NCBI RefSeq assembly: GCF_900890705.1
Contig: NZ_CAAHFH010000002.1
Location: 1,116,001-1,180,000, forward strand
From: Pontiella sulfatireligans
GTDB taxonomy: Bacteria; Verrucomicrobiota; Kiritimatiellia; Kiritimatiellales; Pontiellaceae
Length of the DNA: 64,000 nucleotides
Reading direction: 5' to 3'
Below the pieces are notes generated by a model. It was given only the letters and a program-made list of their open reading frames with translations, was not told the origin of the DNA and ran no database searches. Below, in pieces: positions 16,252 to 22,119 of this stretch. Numbering within the stretch: position 1 is the stretch's first letter; each line of letters opens with the position of its first letter. Made by a program: the position numbers and the translations under genes.

Positions 16252-18000
16252 CTACATTCCTCGCGTTGCTCCAAGCCATTCTAGTATTTTTTGCTGGTAG
16301 GGAGTCGGGGTTGAGGTGGTTTTGAAGTCTCCTTTTTTATGGCCTTCCACTTTGACCCGCGAGCGGGTGATGGCGGATAGGGTGTTGAGAATGTCGCGAA
16401 AGCTCGATATGGGATGCTGCCCGTCCGGGGTGCGGCGGGTTTGGTCTTTTTTCTTGGCGGAGTCGGAGCGTTTGACGGGGTCGACGACGCTATCGCGTTC
16501 GGCCGCGGTTTCTTTTTGTTCGTCGGCGAAAAGCAGGGGCGCTAGCTGGCTGCGCATTTGGTGCTCGATGTGGTAGGCGAGCATGCAGATGAAGATGTGC
16601 GCGCGGACTCGGTTGTCAAGGCGGTGATAGATGGGGCGGACGTTTAGGTCGATGGATTTGAGGGAGCGGAAGGCGCGTTCGACCATTTCGAGGTTTTTAT
16701 AGTTGGCCACGAGTTCCTGGTCGGTCATACGGGTTTTGTCGACGCTGCTGCGGATGACATAGAGGCCGTCGGTGGCGGATTCGGAACGGATCTTTTCTTC
16801 GTTGCGGTCAAAGGCGAAGGTGTCGTCCTCGATGGTGAGGTTGAAGTGTTTCGCCATCTTTTTCTTGTTGATGATTTTGCCGACCTCCACCCCGATCGCA
16901 TCCTTGCCGCGCAGGGGTTTGTTTTTGCGTTCGACCTTTTTGATGATTTCGGCGAGAAGTTTTTCGGTGGCTTGCAAAAGGGCTTCGCGCCTTTTTGAGC
17001 GGCGTTTGGCGAGGTCGGGGTTGCGGCAGACGACGAGGCGTTCGTCCGGGTAGTCGGGGTGGGTTATGCTCGCGAGGTCGCATTCGTCGAAGAACGTGAG
17101 CTGGATGCTCCCGCACCGTTCAAGCTTTGCAATGGAGGCGGCATTGAGCGCCGTGATCCAGTCCGCGCCTTCTTCGTCGCGAAGGTATTCGTCGATGGCT
17201 TTTCCGCTGATCATTCCGCGGTCGCCAATGAAGATGACATTCTTGTGGTTGAAATCCTTTCGCACCCGTTCCACCGCTATGGGAAAGGCAATGCGGTCGC
17301 TTTCGTTCCCGGCCAGGACTTCGACGCCGACGGGCGTACCAGCGGTGTTGCAGTAGATTCCGTAGTTCACTTGCTTGCGATCCCCCCGATGATCGCGGGA
17401 ATACCCGAATTGGGCCAGCTCGCAGCATTGCCCCTCGAAATAGGAGGATGAAAGATCGAACAGTACGGGGGCGCCGTCGGCAAGATGCTTTTTCGCAAGT
17501 TTCTTTTGGATTTTATCCTGTCGTTCCAGCAGCCAATCCATTGCCGCATAGCACTCGTTTTCATGCAAATCCTCAAGGGAGAGTAGCTCGCCCAGAGAGG
17601 TTGAAGCGGTCTGGGGGTCGCAATGGCGAACCGTTGCGAGCTTGGAATCCCCGCTGATAATGCGATCAATAATCATCGCCGCAACCACATCCCTTTCACG
17701 GGAACGTTTTGAGTCGATCATGCCCAGCAGCCCCGACTTTTTCAGCACAGAATGGATGGCTGCAACATGGCCGTGCTGGCGGGCGTCATGAATGGATATG
17801 GCTTTTTCAAGAGATGCAATCCCTTCCGATGCCGGGATCGATTCGCCCTTGAGGGCCGCCCGAAGCGCCTCGACGAGTTCATCGGGCAATCCGCTCAGAT
17901 TAGCCACTGTTTTTTTTCGGACTTTTCCATTTTCCCGCCACGACTCCCGCAAGAGGACGGCGGGCGGAGAGTTTCGATTGGGCACTCGTTCTATATACAT
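16252..18000 (-). CDS. IS1634-type DDE transposase
   Basis: A transposase of 582 residues from the ATG at 18000 (MYIERVPNRNSPPAVLLRES), the usual family N-terminus; longer upstream frames look non-coding. Catalytic-domain landmarks are LFDLSSSYFEG (first Asp), VIFIGDRGMISG (second Asp) and NLEMVERAFRSLKSIDL (Glu region), in an IS4/IS1634-like fold. It appears full-length and uninterrupted, so it may be active. The terminal inverted repeats of the insertion sequence were not resolved by eye. Confidence 0.85.
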   Translation of the reverse strand: MYIERVPNRNSPPAVLLRESWRENGKVRKKTVANLSGLPDELVEALRAALKGESIPASEGIASLEKAISIHDARQHGHVAAIHSVLKKSGLLGMIDSKRSRERDVVAAMIIDRIISGDSKLATVRHCDPQTASTSLGELLSLEDLHENECYAAMDWLLERQDKIQKKLAKKHLADGAPVLFDLSSSYFEGQCCELAQFGYSRDHRGDRKQVNYGIYCNTAGTPVGVEVLAGNESDRIAFPIAVERVRKDFNHKNVIFIGDRGMISGKAIDEYLRDEEGADWITALNAASIAKLERCGSIQLTFFDECDLASITHPDYPDERLVVCRNPDLAKRRSKRREALLQATEKLLAEIIKKVERKNKPLRGKDAIGVEVGKIINKKKMAKHFNLTIEDDTFAFDRNEEKIRSESATDGLYVIRSSVDKTRMTDQELVANYKNLEMVERAFRSLKSIDLNVRPIYHRLDNRVRAHIFICMLAYHIEHQMRSQLAPLLFADEQKETAAERDSVVDPVKRSDSAKKKDQTRRTPDGQHPISSFRDILNTLSAITRSRVKVEGHKKGDFKTTSTPTPYQQKILEWLGATRGM

Positions 18001-18155
18001 GGCCGCACAATATGCGACATAGCGAAACATGCAAGCACTAAGTTTATGTTTACATGGGTACAGATTTTGAAAAACTTGGACATTCTTTTTGTTTAACTCA
18101 TTGAGTGCGAGAGGATTGCATCGCAGAAGGAGCCGTATTTCCTCAGAAGTTCGGA

Positions 18156-18374
18156 TTAAGACGCCCACTTCATGTTGAGCTTGCGGTCGGACGGAACGCA
18201 GTCGCGGAGGTAGAGGTTGATCAAGTTTTGGTATGGTATGCCCGTATCTTCCGCCATCGATTTGAAGTAGTCGATAATATCCTCCCCCATGCGGATGGTT
18301 ACTTGCTTCTTAAGTTGCTTGGCATAGGGATTCTTCCGGCTTTTCATTTTGGAGAGGTCATATTCTTTTTTCAT
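18156..18374 (-). CDS. brnA: BrnA-family antitoxin
   Basis: A protein of 72 residues, basic N-terminus followed by the ribbon-helix-helix-like segment KKQVTIRMGEDIIDYFKSMA and GIPYQNLINLYLRDCV, the BrnA pattern. In known systems BrnA dimers bind BrnT and repress the operon. It lies four bases downstream of the brnT frame. It is intact although its toxin partner is frameshifted. Confidence 0.82.
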   Translation of the reverse strand: MKKEYDLSKMKSRKNPYAKQLKKQVTIRMGEDIIDYFKSMAEDTGIPYQNLINLYLRDCVPSDRKLNMKWAS

Positions 18375-18841: not shown

Positions 18842-19150
18842 ATGCAACAAACGGAAAAATATTGGAACATGATCTTGCGCGGCGCGATGTCCATCGTGGC
18901 CGTAATGTTGCTGGTGGGCGTCATTCTGGCCTTCTCGCCGAAGGTCAAGCAGCTGCAGGCCTACCAAAACACCAACGACATGCTGCAGCAGCGCATCGAT
19001 GTAACCGTAACCGCTGAAAGAGAACTCAAGGAAAAGCAGCGGCGCTTCCTCTCCGACCCAGCCTTTGTTGAAAAAGTGGCGCACGAAGTCGGCTACGCGC
19101 GCGCCGGAGAAACCATTTTCCATTTCCCTGAAGAAACGGGTTCCCGCTAA
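18842..19150 (+). CDS. FtsB/DivIC-type septum formation initiator
   Basis: A protein of 102 residues: short cytoplasmic N-terminus, one membrane helix (about 14-31), a coiled coil (about 33-70) and the conserved periplasmic end FVEKVAHEVGYARAGETIFHFPE. This is the FtsB/DivIC layout; the protein joins FtsL and FtsQ in the divisome. The leader carries heptamer-like TACGCAG/TACGTAT/TACTGCC repeats at about 18805-18827. The ribosome binding site is weak. Confidence 0.85.
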   Translation: MQQTEKYWNMILRGAMSIVAVMLLVGVILAFSPKVKQLQAYQNTNDMLQQRIDVTVTAERELKEKQRRFLSDPAFVEKVAHEVGYARAGETIFHFPEETGSR

Positions 19151-19171
19151 TTTCCGAATTTAGACTTTAGA

Positions 19172-20644
19172 TTGCCGATTTTCGGATGGGCTGTGCCCTC
19201 GCCCCCTAAGATAAAAACTGTCGGAGACCCACAAATAAAAAATCAGCATTCAGCAATCAAAAATAGCCCCGCCCCCATTGCCTGGGCCATTGCCGGCTCC
19301 GACTCCGGCGGAGGCGCCGGCATTCAGGCCGACCTCAAAGTGATGAGCGCCTTCGGCGTGCATGGATGCTCCGTCATCACCGCGCTCACTGCACAAAACA
19401 CCCTCGGCGTCCAATCCTCAGAACCCGTCTCCGATGCCATGCTCCGCGCCCAGCTTCAGTCACTGGAAACCGACCTCCCACCCGCCGTCATCAAAACCGG
19501 CATGCTCGGCAGCGCCGACACCTGCAGTATCCTAGCCGATTTTTTAGGCAAGCTTCAGGTTTCCAGTTTCCAGTTTCCAGTTCCACCGGTCCTCGTCTGC
19601 GACCCCGTGCTCAAATCCACCTCCGGCTCCAACCTGCTCGACCCCGAGGCCCTCGGCATCCTCGTCCAGAGCCTGTTTCCAAGGGTGGATATCCTTACCC
19701 CGAACCTTCCCGAGGCGGAAAAACTGATTGGCAGAAAAATCGAATCCATTGAACAAGCGGCGGATCTGATTTTAGCGATGGGCGTAAAGTCGGTGCTAAT
19801 CAAAGGCGGCCATGCCGAAGGCGGCGAGTGCCGCGACTTTTGGAGCGACGGCACCCAAACGCTCTGGCTTTCCAGCCCGCGCATCGAAACCCCGTCTACA
19901 CACGGCACCGGATGCATACTTGCATCAGCCATTGCATCGGTGCTGGCGCGCGGGCAGGAAATGGCCGAAGCCGTCATAACGGCAAAAACATTTCTAAACC
20001 AATGCCTCAAATCCCCCGCCAACCTAGGCGCAGGCCATGGTCCAATGCTGATCGAACCCTTCAGAAACAATTCTGATGATCGCCCGTATGTTGTGGCCGG
20101 AGGCGGCGGCTCCGCTCCCCGCAAAGCTGTAGATGGAGGCGGCGACTCCGCTGCGCAGAATCCGGAGTCACCGCCTCCGGCTACAACAGAACATTCCCAC
20201 CTCCGCCGCCTATCCAAGATTTTCGTCAGCGACCCTGCATATTTCGTCACGACCTGCACAAAGAACCGCCGAAGACTACTCGACAACCCAACGGTCCACC
20301 AGATCCTGCGCGAAGAGTGGGAAGGCGCATTAGACCGTCACGGCTGGGCCTTCGGCTCGTATGTCGTGATGCCGGACCATATCCATTTTTTCTGCAAACC
20401 AACACCTGAGGCCTGCAAGCTTTCAGAGCTGATGCAGCATTGGAAGGAATGGACCAGCAAACGCATCAAGCAGGAGTTGCTGCTGGACGATACGGTTTGG
20501 CAGGAAGAGTTCTTCGACCACCTGCTGCGCTCGCACGAAAGCTATTCGGAAAAATGGAACTACGTCGAGCAAAACCCGGTGCGAGCGGGATTGGCGGCGA
20601 CTGCGGCCGACTGGCCCTACGCCGGATTCATTCACTACAAGTAA
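19172..20644 (+). CDS. ThiD (HMP-P kinase) fused to a REP-associated tyrosine transposase
   Basis: One open frame of 490 codons with two unrelated domains. Residues about 38-300 are hydroxymethylpyrimidine(phosphate) kinase of thiamin synthesis: IAGSDSGGGAGIQADLKVM, VIKTGMLGS, LTPNLPEAEKL and the catalytic STHGTGC. Residues about 308-338 are translated REP repeats. Residues about 345-490 are a RAYT (Y1/HUH family): YVVMPDHIHFF with HUH His403/His405 and WNYVEQNPVRAGL with Tyr464. The start is uncertain: TTG at 19172 or GTG at 19193. There is no ATG before either domain, and the N-terminus and residues 130-138 are encoded by heptameric repeats. Whether a fusion protein is made is unknown. Confidence 0.8.
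   Translation: MPIFGWAVPSPPKIKTVGDPQIKNQHSAIKNSPAPIAWAIAGSDSGGGAGIQADLKVMSAFGVHGCSVITALTAQNTLGVQSSEPVSDAMLRAQLQSLETDLPPAVIKTGMLGSADTCSILADFLGKLQVSSFQFPVPPVLVCDPVLKSTSGSNLLDPEALGILVQSLFPRVDILTPNLPEAEKLIGRKIESIEQAADLILAMGVKSVLIKGGHAEGGECRDFWSDGTQTLWLSSPRIETPSTHGTGCILASAIASVLARGQEMAEAVITAKTFLNQCLKSPANLGAGHGPMLIEPFRNNSDDRPYVVAGGGGSAPRKAVDGGGDSAAQNPESPPPATTEHSHLRRLSKIFVSDPAYFVTTCTKNRRRLLDNPTVHQILREEWEGALDRHGWAFGSYVVMPDHIHFFCKPTPEACKLSELMQHWKEWTSKRIKQELLLDDTVWQEEFFDHLLRSHESYSEKWNYVEQNPVRAGLAATAADWPYAGFIHYK
20093..20184. repeat. REP array (family A) inside the ThiD-RAYT linker
   Basis: Three REP units lie at 20093-20115 (GTGG variant), 20129-20151 and, inverted, 20162-20184. The unit is GTAG, then an imperfect hairpin (GCGGAG or CCGGAG, seven bases, CTCCGC or CTCCGG). 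The reading frame passes through all of them, giving Gly/Ala/Pro-rich residues. Confidence 0.85.
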
Positions 20645-20667
20645 TAGACTCCGCTCCCCGCAAAGCT

Positions 20668-20822
20668 GTAGGCGGAGGCGGCGACTCCGCGCCATGCAAA
20701 GCTGTAGGCGGAGGCGGCAACTCCGCTCCCCGCAATGCTGTAGGCGGAGGCGGCGACTCCGCTGCGCAGAATCCGGAGTCAACGCCTCCGGCTACAGTTC
20801 CGGAGTCAACGCCTCCGGCGGC
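20668..20822. repeat. REP array (family A) downstream of the RAYT domain
   Basis: Three direct units at 20668-20690, 20704-20726 and 20740-20762 are followed by two inverted units at 20773-20795 and 20800-20822 (the last without GTAG). The spacer sequence CTCCGCTCCCCGCAA before GTAG also occurs in the upstream array. The RAYT is thus bracketed by its probable substrates, the layout known for bacterial RAYT loci. Confidence 0.9.
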
Positions 20823-20829
20823 AACAACA

Positions 20830-22119
20830 TTAAAACGTCGTAAGGCCGGCGATGGCGGCGCCAACGACGGGCGCATCTTCAATCTGAATACAACGAATGT
20901 GAAGGCCGCGTTCGCTCAGCATCGTTTTCAAATGCGCCTGCACTTTGTCGGCGAGCTGATAGGTTTTGTAGTAGGTCGATCCGTCAATGTTGATGCAGAC
21001 CGGATGCTCCGGATCCTGCCCGGCGCCGCTCTTAACCACCGAAGCAAGCAAGTTGACGGCCGTGAGCAGCGCCGCACGGTCGACCACCGCAGTGAAAACG
21101 GTTTTCATGATTTCGCGGTCGCCATCCGTAAAGGCCTCGCTTTCAAGTACGCCGGTGTCGCGGCCATTATCTGCCGCCAGATTGTCGATATGGATGGTGG
21201 AGAGGTCTTTCATGATGGAGAGCGCTGCACCGCCGGCGTTGGAAAAAACATTTTCCGAGGCCAGCTCCTGCAGCAGCTCCAGCGTAATCGGCCCCATGTA
21301 GACGCCCGAGATGGTTTTCTCAAAAATATGCCCTCCGGGATTCTCGCTTTGCTCATCGAGCTGCAGGTCTAATGCGCCGCGCTTGAACGAGGCGAACCCG
21401 CCCGATTCAACATTGATCACCTGCGAACCGGCGCCGAGGTAGCCATCGAGCTTGCCGATGTTTTCGTTTTGCTCCACATAGGCGGTATTGGTGCCCGTGC
21501 CGAGAATAAAGCCGACATAGGAGGAGGCGCAAAAGGCCTGTCCCTGCGCAAGTCCGGCCAGCAGGCAGGCCACCGTATCATTCAGAACCACCACCCTCTT
21601 TTCGAAGATGCCGCGTTCTCCCAGGGCATCGATCAGCCCGGCGCCAATGTGCTTGCCGACCAGTTCGGGAATCTTGATCTCTTTGGTCCAGTGCAGCAAC
21701 CGCCCGTCAAAGTCGGGCATAATGGCGGCGGGGTAGGAAAAGCAGAAGCCGATGTTTTCAAACTCGTCTCTCAATGGCTCCAGCGCATCGACCAGTACGC
21801 CATAGAATTCGACGATGGAAATTTCGTGGTCGCGTCCCGGCATCGCCTGCTTGGTGAAATTGGAAAGTTCGATTTTACCTTGTTCGTTAAAGCGAGCAAT
21901 GCAGATGCGCAGGTTCGTGCCGCCGGCATCAATGACCGCCACCGGTTTGCCGGCTGGAACCTGCCCGGCAGTGCCGACATAGGCGGGAATCATGGCCAGT
22001 GAACTGGCCTCGCCGTTGAGCCCTTTTTCCATTTCATCCAAGAAATGGGCCAACAAGGTGTCGGCATCATAGGCCTCCGCCGAAATCTTCTGACCCTTCA
22101 ACCAAGCGCGAATATCCAT
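20830..22119 (-). CDS. Hexokinase-family sugar kinase (eukaryotic type)
   Basis: An ATP-dependent hexose kinase of 429 residues with the actin-like ATPase fold. Visible are VAVIDAGGTNLRICIARF (phosphate-1 loop), FCFSYPAAI (sugar-binding region), LNDTVACLLAG (catalytic Asp) and YVGFILGTGTNTAYVE. These match the hexokinase family rather than the ROK or glucokinase families usual in bacteria. The probable role is glucose phosphorylation in the cytosol. Its 3' end lies eight bases from the REP array. Confidence 0.88.
   Translation of the reverse strand: MDIRAWLKGQKISAEAYDADTLLAHFLDEMEKGLNGEASSLAMIPAYVGTAGQVPAGKPVAVIDAGGTNLRICIARFNEQGKIELSNFTKQAMPGRDHEISIVEFYGVLVDALEPLRDEFENIGFCFSYPAAIMPDFDGRLLHWTKEIKIPELVGKHIGAGLIDALGERGIFEKRVVVLNDTVACLLAGLAQGQAFCASSYVGFILGTGTNTAYVEQNENIGKLDGYLGAGSQVINVESGGFASFKRGALDLQLDEQSENPGGHIFEKTISGVYMGPITLELLQELASENVFSNAGGAALSIMKDLSTIHIDNLAADNGRDTGVLESEAFTDGDREIMKTVFTAVVDRAALLTAVNLLASVVKSGAGQDPEHPVCINIDGSTYYKTYQLADKVQAHLKTMLSERGLHIRCIQIEDAPVVGAAIAGLTTF

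Follow-up and report, generated by a model that had tools for sequence, protein, structure and literature searches.

A thiD gene of Pontiella sulfatireligans runs in frame through an inverted pair of REP hairpins (a REPIN) into a REP-associated tyrosine transposase (RAYT), and the same arrangement recurs in other host proteins of this and related genomes. The reading favored here, at a probability of roughly 0.6, is that the window (the whole stretch of 64,000 nucleotides analysed, contig NZ_CAAHFH010000002.1, positions 1,116,001 to 1,180,000) contains one copy of a homing-like RAYT/REPIN element that resides within protein-coding genes and is translated with them, without splicing. RAYTs are known as separate, usually single-copy genes, and their benefit and mobility are open questions. 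The features of the locus, in window coordinates, are:

19172..20644, + strand: ThiD-REPIN-RAYT open frame, 490 aa (TTG start taken from a mechanical listing; true start codon unsure)
19301..20047, + strand: ThiD (hydroxymethylpyrimidine / phosphomethylpyrimidine kinase) domain (PF08543, TIGR00097)
20092..20185, + strand: translated REPIN forming the linker, with inverted hairpins in a 94-nt span (arms 20089-20114 and 20163-20188)
20189..20641, + strand: RAYT (TnpAREP) domain (NF047646; 4er8; HUH and Tyr kept; no ATG in codons -35 to +12)
20647..20754, + strand: three tandem 36-nt REP copies after the stop (repeat comparison)
20703..20796, + strand: second REPIN copy, 91% identical to the translated REPIN
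20799..20826, + strand: last REP arm of the array (repeat comparison)
20830..22119, - strand: hexokinase gene, convergent (PF03727, E 6e-45)

The first-pass annotation of this DNA had described an in-frame ThiD-REP-RAYT fusion that keeps the HUH and Tyr residues and has no ATG ahead of the RAYT, and all three points were borne out. The ORF reading of the window gives a single open frame from the TTG at 19172 to 20644 with no internal stop (490 aa, or 497 aa from stop to stop), and both domains score above their profile cut-offs. The ThiD part matches PF08543 over residues 44-292 (E 6e-80) and belongs to TIGR00097 (269 bits; cut-off 205); residues 349-483 belong to NF047646 (111.7 bits; cut-off 80). 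The frame scored 39.7 bits with the IS200/IS605 TnpA profile NF033573, below its cut-off of 55. The solved TnpAREP chain 4er8 aligns with residues 9-146 of the 150-aa RAYT piece (E 1.8e-10), and the HUH motif (HIH in the query, HMH in 4er8) and the Tyr before NPV are in register. The linker between ThiD and the RAYT is approximately 37 residues long and is mostly encoded by the REP pair. No ATG occurs in codons -35 to +12 of the RAYT start, and the one GTG, 32 codons upstream, has no Shine-Dalgarno (SD)-like motif. The gene upstream of the frame is DivIC-like, and an IS1634-type transposase lies upstream of thiD (16252-18168, - strand). When the fusion protein was used as query against plasmids, none of 420 records covered 80% of it.

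The 94-nt stretch at 20092-20185, inside the frame, is repeated at 91% identity at 20703-20796, past the stop and amid the 36-nt REP copies. The first hairpin of the linker is tagged GTGG, with one GTAG inside the linker, and the downstream REP copies are tagged GTAG. The proposal that REP arrays of one family bracket the RAYT as its likely substrates is supported by these GTAG hairpins on both sides. A search of the 7.4-Mb genome with the 16-base REP core, allowing one mismatch, returned nine matches (two for the reversed-pattern control), six of which sit at the ThiD-RAYT locus; this one core, with one mismatch, did not reveal a dispersed, high-copy REPIN population of the RAYT's own REP family. 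By this 16-base pattern the array is local rather than part of a widely dispersed family and, with the family almost confined to its locus, there is no sign of recent spread. At another place in this genome, a Y1-type protein (L019, G000:C2:1774819-1778040) is interrupted in frame by tandem translated repeats with the units REEGATCVS and PREGRATCV.

The ThiD gene was matched (E<=1e-20) in 56 of the 58 genomes searched, and the ThiD-RAYT frame was found in four: the genome of the window (G000), G006, G018 and G025. Each of these has only one ThiD match at that threshold; i.e., the fused gene is the sole ThiD found. A sequencing frameshift or assembly artefact as the source of the fusion was ruled out by its presence in four separate assemblies. 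Stops between the domains in all relatives, an outcome that the first-pass annotation had considered, were not found, the frame being open in G006, G018 and G025. The ThiD parts of the four fusions are 67-78% identical at the protein level and the RAYT parts 71-81%, with pS values (0.67-0.93) near saturation for the latter. Across the six pairs of fusions, pN/pS was 0.16-0.22 for the RAYT (median 0.19) and 0.24-0.32 for ThiD (median 0.28), so conservation of the RAYT part equals or exceeds that of ThiD. With synonymous sites near saturation at this level of identity, the suggestion of a recently captured copy is not supported. The initial description of the locus thus stood as regards the frame, the REP substrate and the lack of an own ATG, but not as regards recent capture, and its scope, limited to ThiD, was too narrow.

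All four thiD linkers have a hairpin near the start and an inverted hairpin at the end, and all finish with CTAC and a short tail; the first hairpin carries the GTAG tag in G006, G018 and G025. The stems vary (e.g., GGGATC/GATCCC, GGGGTC/GACCCC and GAGATC/GATCTC) and the encoded peptides differ, with pairing kept in all four. Other states of the gene were also found. In G021 only a few RAYT-like residues follow ThiD and the REP before the frame ends, with the next gene directly adjoining, which looks like loss of the RAYT body; in G007 and G003 thiD has a translated REP-like tail and no RAYT. By eye, the same hexokinase gene end follows thiD in G003, G006, G007, G018 and G021, and not in G002, G013 and G025. 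The four ThiD-RAYTs group together weakly (79/33). The fused state requires four changes on the host tree, which is unresolved and may be compatible with a single origin of the fused ThiD.

Several of these ThiD genes lack an evident start codon. Ten of the 18 ThiD genes of the group have no ATG, GTG or TTG within the 20 codons before the conserved IAGSD motif, and seven of the 18 checked, including the fusions of G018 and G025, have none anywhere in the open frame upstream. An ATT, ATC or ATA codon often lies four codons ahead of the IAGSD motif (window 19150-19280; L060-L079).

ThiD is one of approximately 19 kinds of host protein with an in-frame RAYT across the phylum, which makes a thiamin-tied function unlikely. 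A RAYT search of the 58 genomes gave matches in 52, many of them in long frames, and the regions were fetched by place, so that the sample is enriched for long frames; of the 102 distinct RAYT frames in the loci examined, 61 are in one frame with a host gene and come from 32 of the 58 genomes (a lower bound). Fifty-seven of these lie beyond the four thiD cases, in the same genome and in relatives. The hosts are priA (17), cca (10), a B12/radical-SAM DUF4080 protein (rSAM, 9), xseA (9), thiD (4), cobQ, tatD, mvaD and an Eco57I-type methylase (2 each), and hypF, fic, 5-formyltetrahydrofolate cyclo-ligase and a Methyltransf_9 protein (1 each). Pfam was run on 24 of the 61 embedded frames and found host domains in every one; the other 37 were sorted by their blastp matches to exemplars, the RAYT being masked. 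In L093, L094, L101 and L107 the Y1_Tnp model was missing at 1e-5, and the RAYT was called from NF047646. Chance run-on of an open frame was ruled out for the counted cases, in which host domain and RAYT share one frame; one candidate, L090 (963 aa), was judged by eye to be a chance run-on and dropped. The remaining 41 RAYT frames, including L092 with its unclear architecture, had no assigned host; those among them with a RAYT match over 100 aa, L090 being left out, served as free copies (n=33). A control search of the same 58 genomes with HTH_Tnp_1 gave six frames over 300 aa among the matches listed.

Host domains were found on both sides of the RAYT in PriA, XseA, HypF, the CCA enzyme, the methylase (L102) and the radical-SAM protein at one site (L099, L103 and L110). 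In PriA, for instance, the 3' DNA-binding domain precedes the RAYT, and the DEAD, zinc-ribbon, Helicase_C and PriA_C domains follow it. At a second radical-SAM site (L095, L100, L105 and L109) Pfam host domains occur only before the RAYT, and the host continuation behind it was recognised by eye from comparison with L099. At L099 (G021:C137:1-7000), adjoining Fic and radical-SAM DUF4080 genes each have an in-frame RAYT, and the two RAYTs fall in the same tree group.

The arrangement extends to distant genomes. A phylum-wide search found a RAYT at E<=1e-12 in 167 of 288 genomes, and all seven of the long frames put to Pfam (of 15 fetched) contain a host protein: leucyl-tRNA synthetase, alanyl-tRNA synthetase (twice), methionine synthase, HsdR, a type I specificity subunit and a Ham1 protein. 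Among the remaining eight of the 15, several look by eye like chance run-ons. The RAYTs of L242, L249, L244, L243 and L245 lie inside LeuRS, AlaRS (twice), MetH and HsdR frames, that of L244 being called from the phylum-wide profile match.

The usual order of parts is host, REPIN, RAYT, REPIN, host. Inverted repeats on the flanks scored above the 99% null for 54 of 58 embedded RAYTs and for 18 of 33 free ones (three of the 61 embedded copies had flanks too short to be included). The 5' flank also repeats the 3' flank in direct orientation, exceeding the null in 46 of 54 embedded copies (seven of the 61 were left out for a short RAYT match or short flanks); examples are 60/62 nt in L107 (xseA), 55/55 in L112 (rSAM) and 96/98 in L222 (priA), each of which is by eye itself an inverted hairpin pair. 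A strict regular expression for HUH and Tyr matched 54 of the 61 embedded and 30 of the 33 free RAYTs. Among the seven embedded copies that it missed, five have HVH after a variant residue and L211 has no Tyr; for L098 the wrong stretch had been examined. The PriA-resident RAYT of L215 and L216 (G014 and G037) is itself interrupted by translated REP-like text, with the frame still open.

If the RAYT were made as a separate protein through internal initiation or reinitiation, the fusion frame would be incidental. Some ATG does occur in codons -35 to +12 in 19 of the 61 embedded copies (31 of 33 free RAYTs), and the L091 RAYT, fused to 5-formyltetrahydrofolate cyclo-ligase, probably has one of its own. 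However, an ATG with an SD-like motif in that interval was found in none of the 61 embedded copies, as against nine of the 33 free RAYTs, although SD-like motifs are scarce before free RAYTs too, which makes this test weak alone. Moreover, any ATG is lacking there in all four thiD fusions, so that these RAYTs do not have the start expected of a separate gene, and likewise in all nine radical-SAM and both tatD cases; in G006 and G025 there is not even a GTG or TTG. Where a copy is internal, the frame also continues from its 3' side into the host. Separate synthesis of the RAYT is accordingly regarded as very unlikely.

The xseA and priA sites were used to compare alleles. XseA was found in 57 of the 58 genomes, and at one insertion point, in the 31 genomes with enough of the C-terminal part, 18 alleles are empty, four hold only REP sequence and nine hold a RAYT. 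Seventeen of the empty alleles have 3-5 residues at the site; the eighteenth (G049, of another family) has 19 residues that are not REP-like and was counted as empty. The REP-only inserts (G001, G015, G018 and G025) are 17-31 residues long, and the RAYT inserts 219-239 residues in the seven of nine with both sides on the contig. In priA, among 22 genomes picked from the search matches, two alleles are empty, four are REP-only (18-39 residues) and 16 are filled (226-315 residues in 15 of them). No broken-frame insert was found in either gene where both host sides lie on one contig (G003 and G021 for xseA and G014 for priA are cut by a contig end), as expected if selection on the host gene removes such inserts. 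The REP-only alleles may be landing pads or leftovers after loss of a RAYT; the similar REPINs on the two sides of the RAYT agree with its insertion into a REPIN as well as with its loss by recombination of one REPIN with the other. Presence of the RAYT changes six times for xseA and five times for priA on the best host trees, parts of which are unresolved.

The resident RAYTs have been under purifying selection. In the seven host groups with pairs to compare (one of two tatD rows being dropped), median pN/pS was 0.19-0.35 for the RAYT and 0.19-0.38 for the host. It is conceivable that cassettes land everywhere, that those in frame at tolerant places survive, and that the RAYT then decays slowly without function. 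Such passive tolerance would agree with the in-frame REPs known within genes of other bacteria (PMC3733652), and with the position of many inserts at an end of the protein or in the space between two Pfam domains, although a single Pfam domain is split in XseA and AlaRS. It sits badly with medians well under 1 in all seven groups, with the retention of HUH and Tyr described above, including HVH in five of the seven misses, and with the pairing kept in all four thiD linkers, and is considered highly improbable.

Selection on the RAYT similar to that on the host is what would be seen if the domain had been domesticated; i.e., kept for a benefit to the host protein or cell, such as the tethering of PriA, XseA or ThiD to single-stranded DNA or to REPs. 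Two of the host genes, priA and xseA, do act on DNA and hold 17 and nine residents. But the hosts as a whole have no function in common (enzymes of thiamin, cobalamin and mevalonate metabolism, tRNA synthetases, restriction enzymes), the RAYT is patchily present among close species, as the changes counted on the xseA and priA trees indicate, and diverged RAYTs replace one another at one site. Domestication is therefore thought unlikely, if less so than the two alternatives above.

The history of the residents bears on the preferred reading, a homing-like element. RAYTs sort by host gene, with 11 label changes where the minimum is 10 and the shuffled mean 33 (52 rows of the larger subtype), a count in which close copies favor clustering by host. 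Some lineages seem to have switched host: between mvaD and the Methyltransf_9 protein and between the radical-SAM protein and HypF (starred branches), and, weakly, between the radical-SAM protein and Fic. The priA host tree splits two families with full support (100/100), while the priA-resident RAYTs form two lineages that each contain both families, and an AU test rejects the PriA-resident RAYTs of family f2 as a single clade (p-AU 4e-40). In the case of xseA, a single clade of family f1 is compatible with the AU test (p 0.30), and the argument for non-vertical history thus leans on priA. Where different RAYT lineages occupy the same site within one family, median RAYT identity is 0.57 (xseA) and 0.50 (priA), with 0.76 and 0.84 for the hosts. 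Within the same RAYT lineage across families, RAYT identity in xseA is 0.67 against 0.55 for the host; in priA both medians are 0.64, i.e., the RAYTs are no closer than their hosts, and the exchange may be old. The residents are thus under purifying selection, and appear to stay long with their gene and to be exchanged occasionally at the same place. The movement could also have come about by ordinary recombination of the host DNA on the flanks, or by diverged RAYTs inserting from other places in their own genome.

The scheme proposed for a homing-like RAYT/REPIN element would run as follows. A small REPIN would land in frame where the protein tolerates an insert, and a RAYT cassette would then settle in the REPIN, leaving similar, often near-identical REPIN copies on both sides. 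The anatomy commonly seen is an N-terminal host part, a REPIN of two inverted GTAG hairpins open in the host frame, a RAYT mostly without its own start, a second REPIN and the C-terminal host part; at a gene end, as in thiD, the frame stops after the RAYT and leaves the second REPIN untranslated. The RAYT would be made from the promoter and start of the host, as a domain of an unspliced fusion protein, and is predicted to nick and join GTAG hairpins as single strands. Through this activity it could move into or out of the same site in related genomes, or replace its occupant, in the manner of intein homing without splicing. Out-of-frame copies would be lost because they break the host, so that translation may be the element's way of being harmless, with host selection keeping the frame open. 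That the system as a whole amounts to translated, unspliced homing is a more tentative proposal, put at slightly less than even odds: an in-frame HUH nuclease would use translated palindromes as landing and excision sites and move between species into the same codon site, and the empty, REPIN-only and REPIN-RAYT-REPIN alleles would be states of one cycle.

The element resembles known RAYT/TnpAREP systems with flanking REPs (REPtron, REPIN) in its HUH-Tyr nuclease, its homology to 4er8 and its GTAG hairpins in inverted pairs, but known RAYTs are described as separate genes, whereas here the RAYT is in frame with a host protein. Translated palindromes in protein genes are likewise seen in the in-frame intragenic REPs of Opitutus terrae and others and in the Rickettsia palindromic elements, small elements without a transposase gene; here, in contrast, the REPINs bracket a RAYT. 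Inteins, too, are in-frame residents of housekeeping genes, with host-gene-specific lineages, recurrent sites and a patchy distribution, all of which the embedded RAYTs share; unlike inteins, the RAYT domain is expected to stay in the protein without splicing, and no intein or Hint family was among the Pfam matches of the scanned frames.

In-frame REPs inside genes, many of them for repair or replication, are described for Opitutus terrae, Rickettsia conorii and others in the available part of PMC3733652, and the REP-only xseA and priA alleles are of the same kind. The insertions reported there are REP units and clusters encoding up to 82 aa, and that part of the paper does not mention a whole RAYT within a host gene. 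IStrons (an IS200/IS605-type IS with a group I intron) are, in the accessible text of PMC4227781, another transposase element made harmless within a gene; here the harmlessness would come from translation instead of RNA splicing. RNA splicing by a group I intron was rejected for the present elements, since 10 loci gave no Rfam match at the gathering score. Proteins of unexpected length were excluded as fusions or annotation errors in a survey of the RAYT superfamily (PMC6006769), and in two further RAYT papers (PMC8266576, PMC2817692) a search by term turned up nothing on in-frame embedding. No report of whole RAYTs embedded in frame in host proteins was found in the open-licence literature by title and abstract start.

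In all, 61 RAYT frames are joined to proteins of the host, many with a known function and some of them essential, and a single codon site can hold alternative alleles. These alleles allow direct tests of whether a RAYT moves and whether translation hides its cost. The observations suggest that genes can keep palindromic DNA substrates within their coding sequence even as the peptide encoded there drifts. They also suggest that an additional nuclease-like domain can be part of the open frame of PriA, XseA, LeuRS or AlaRS.
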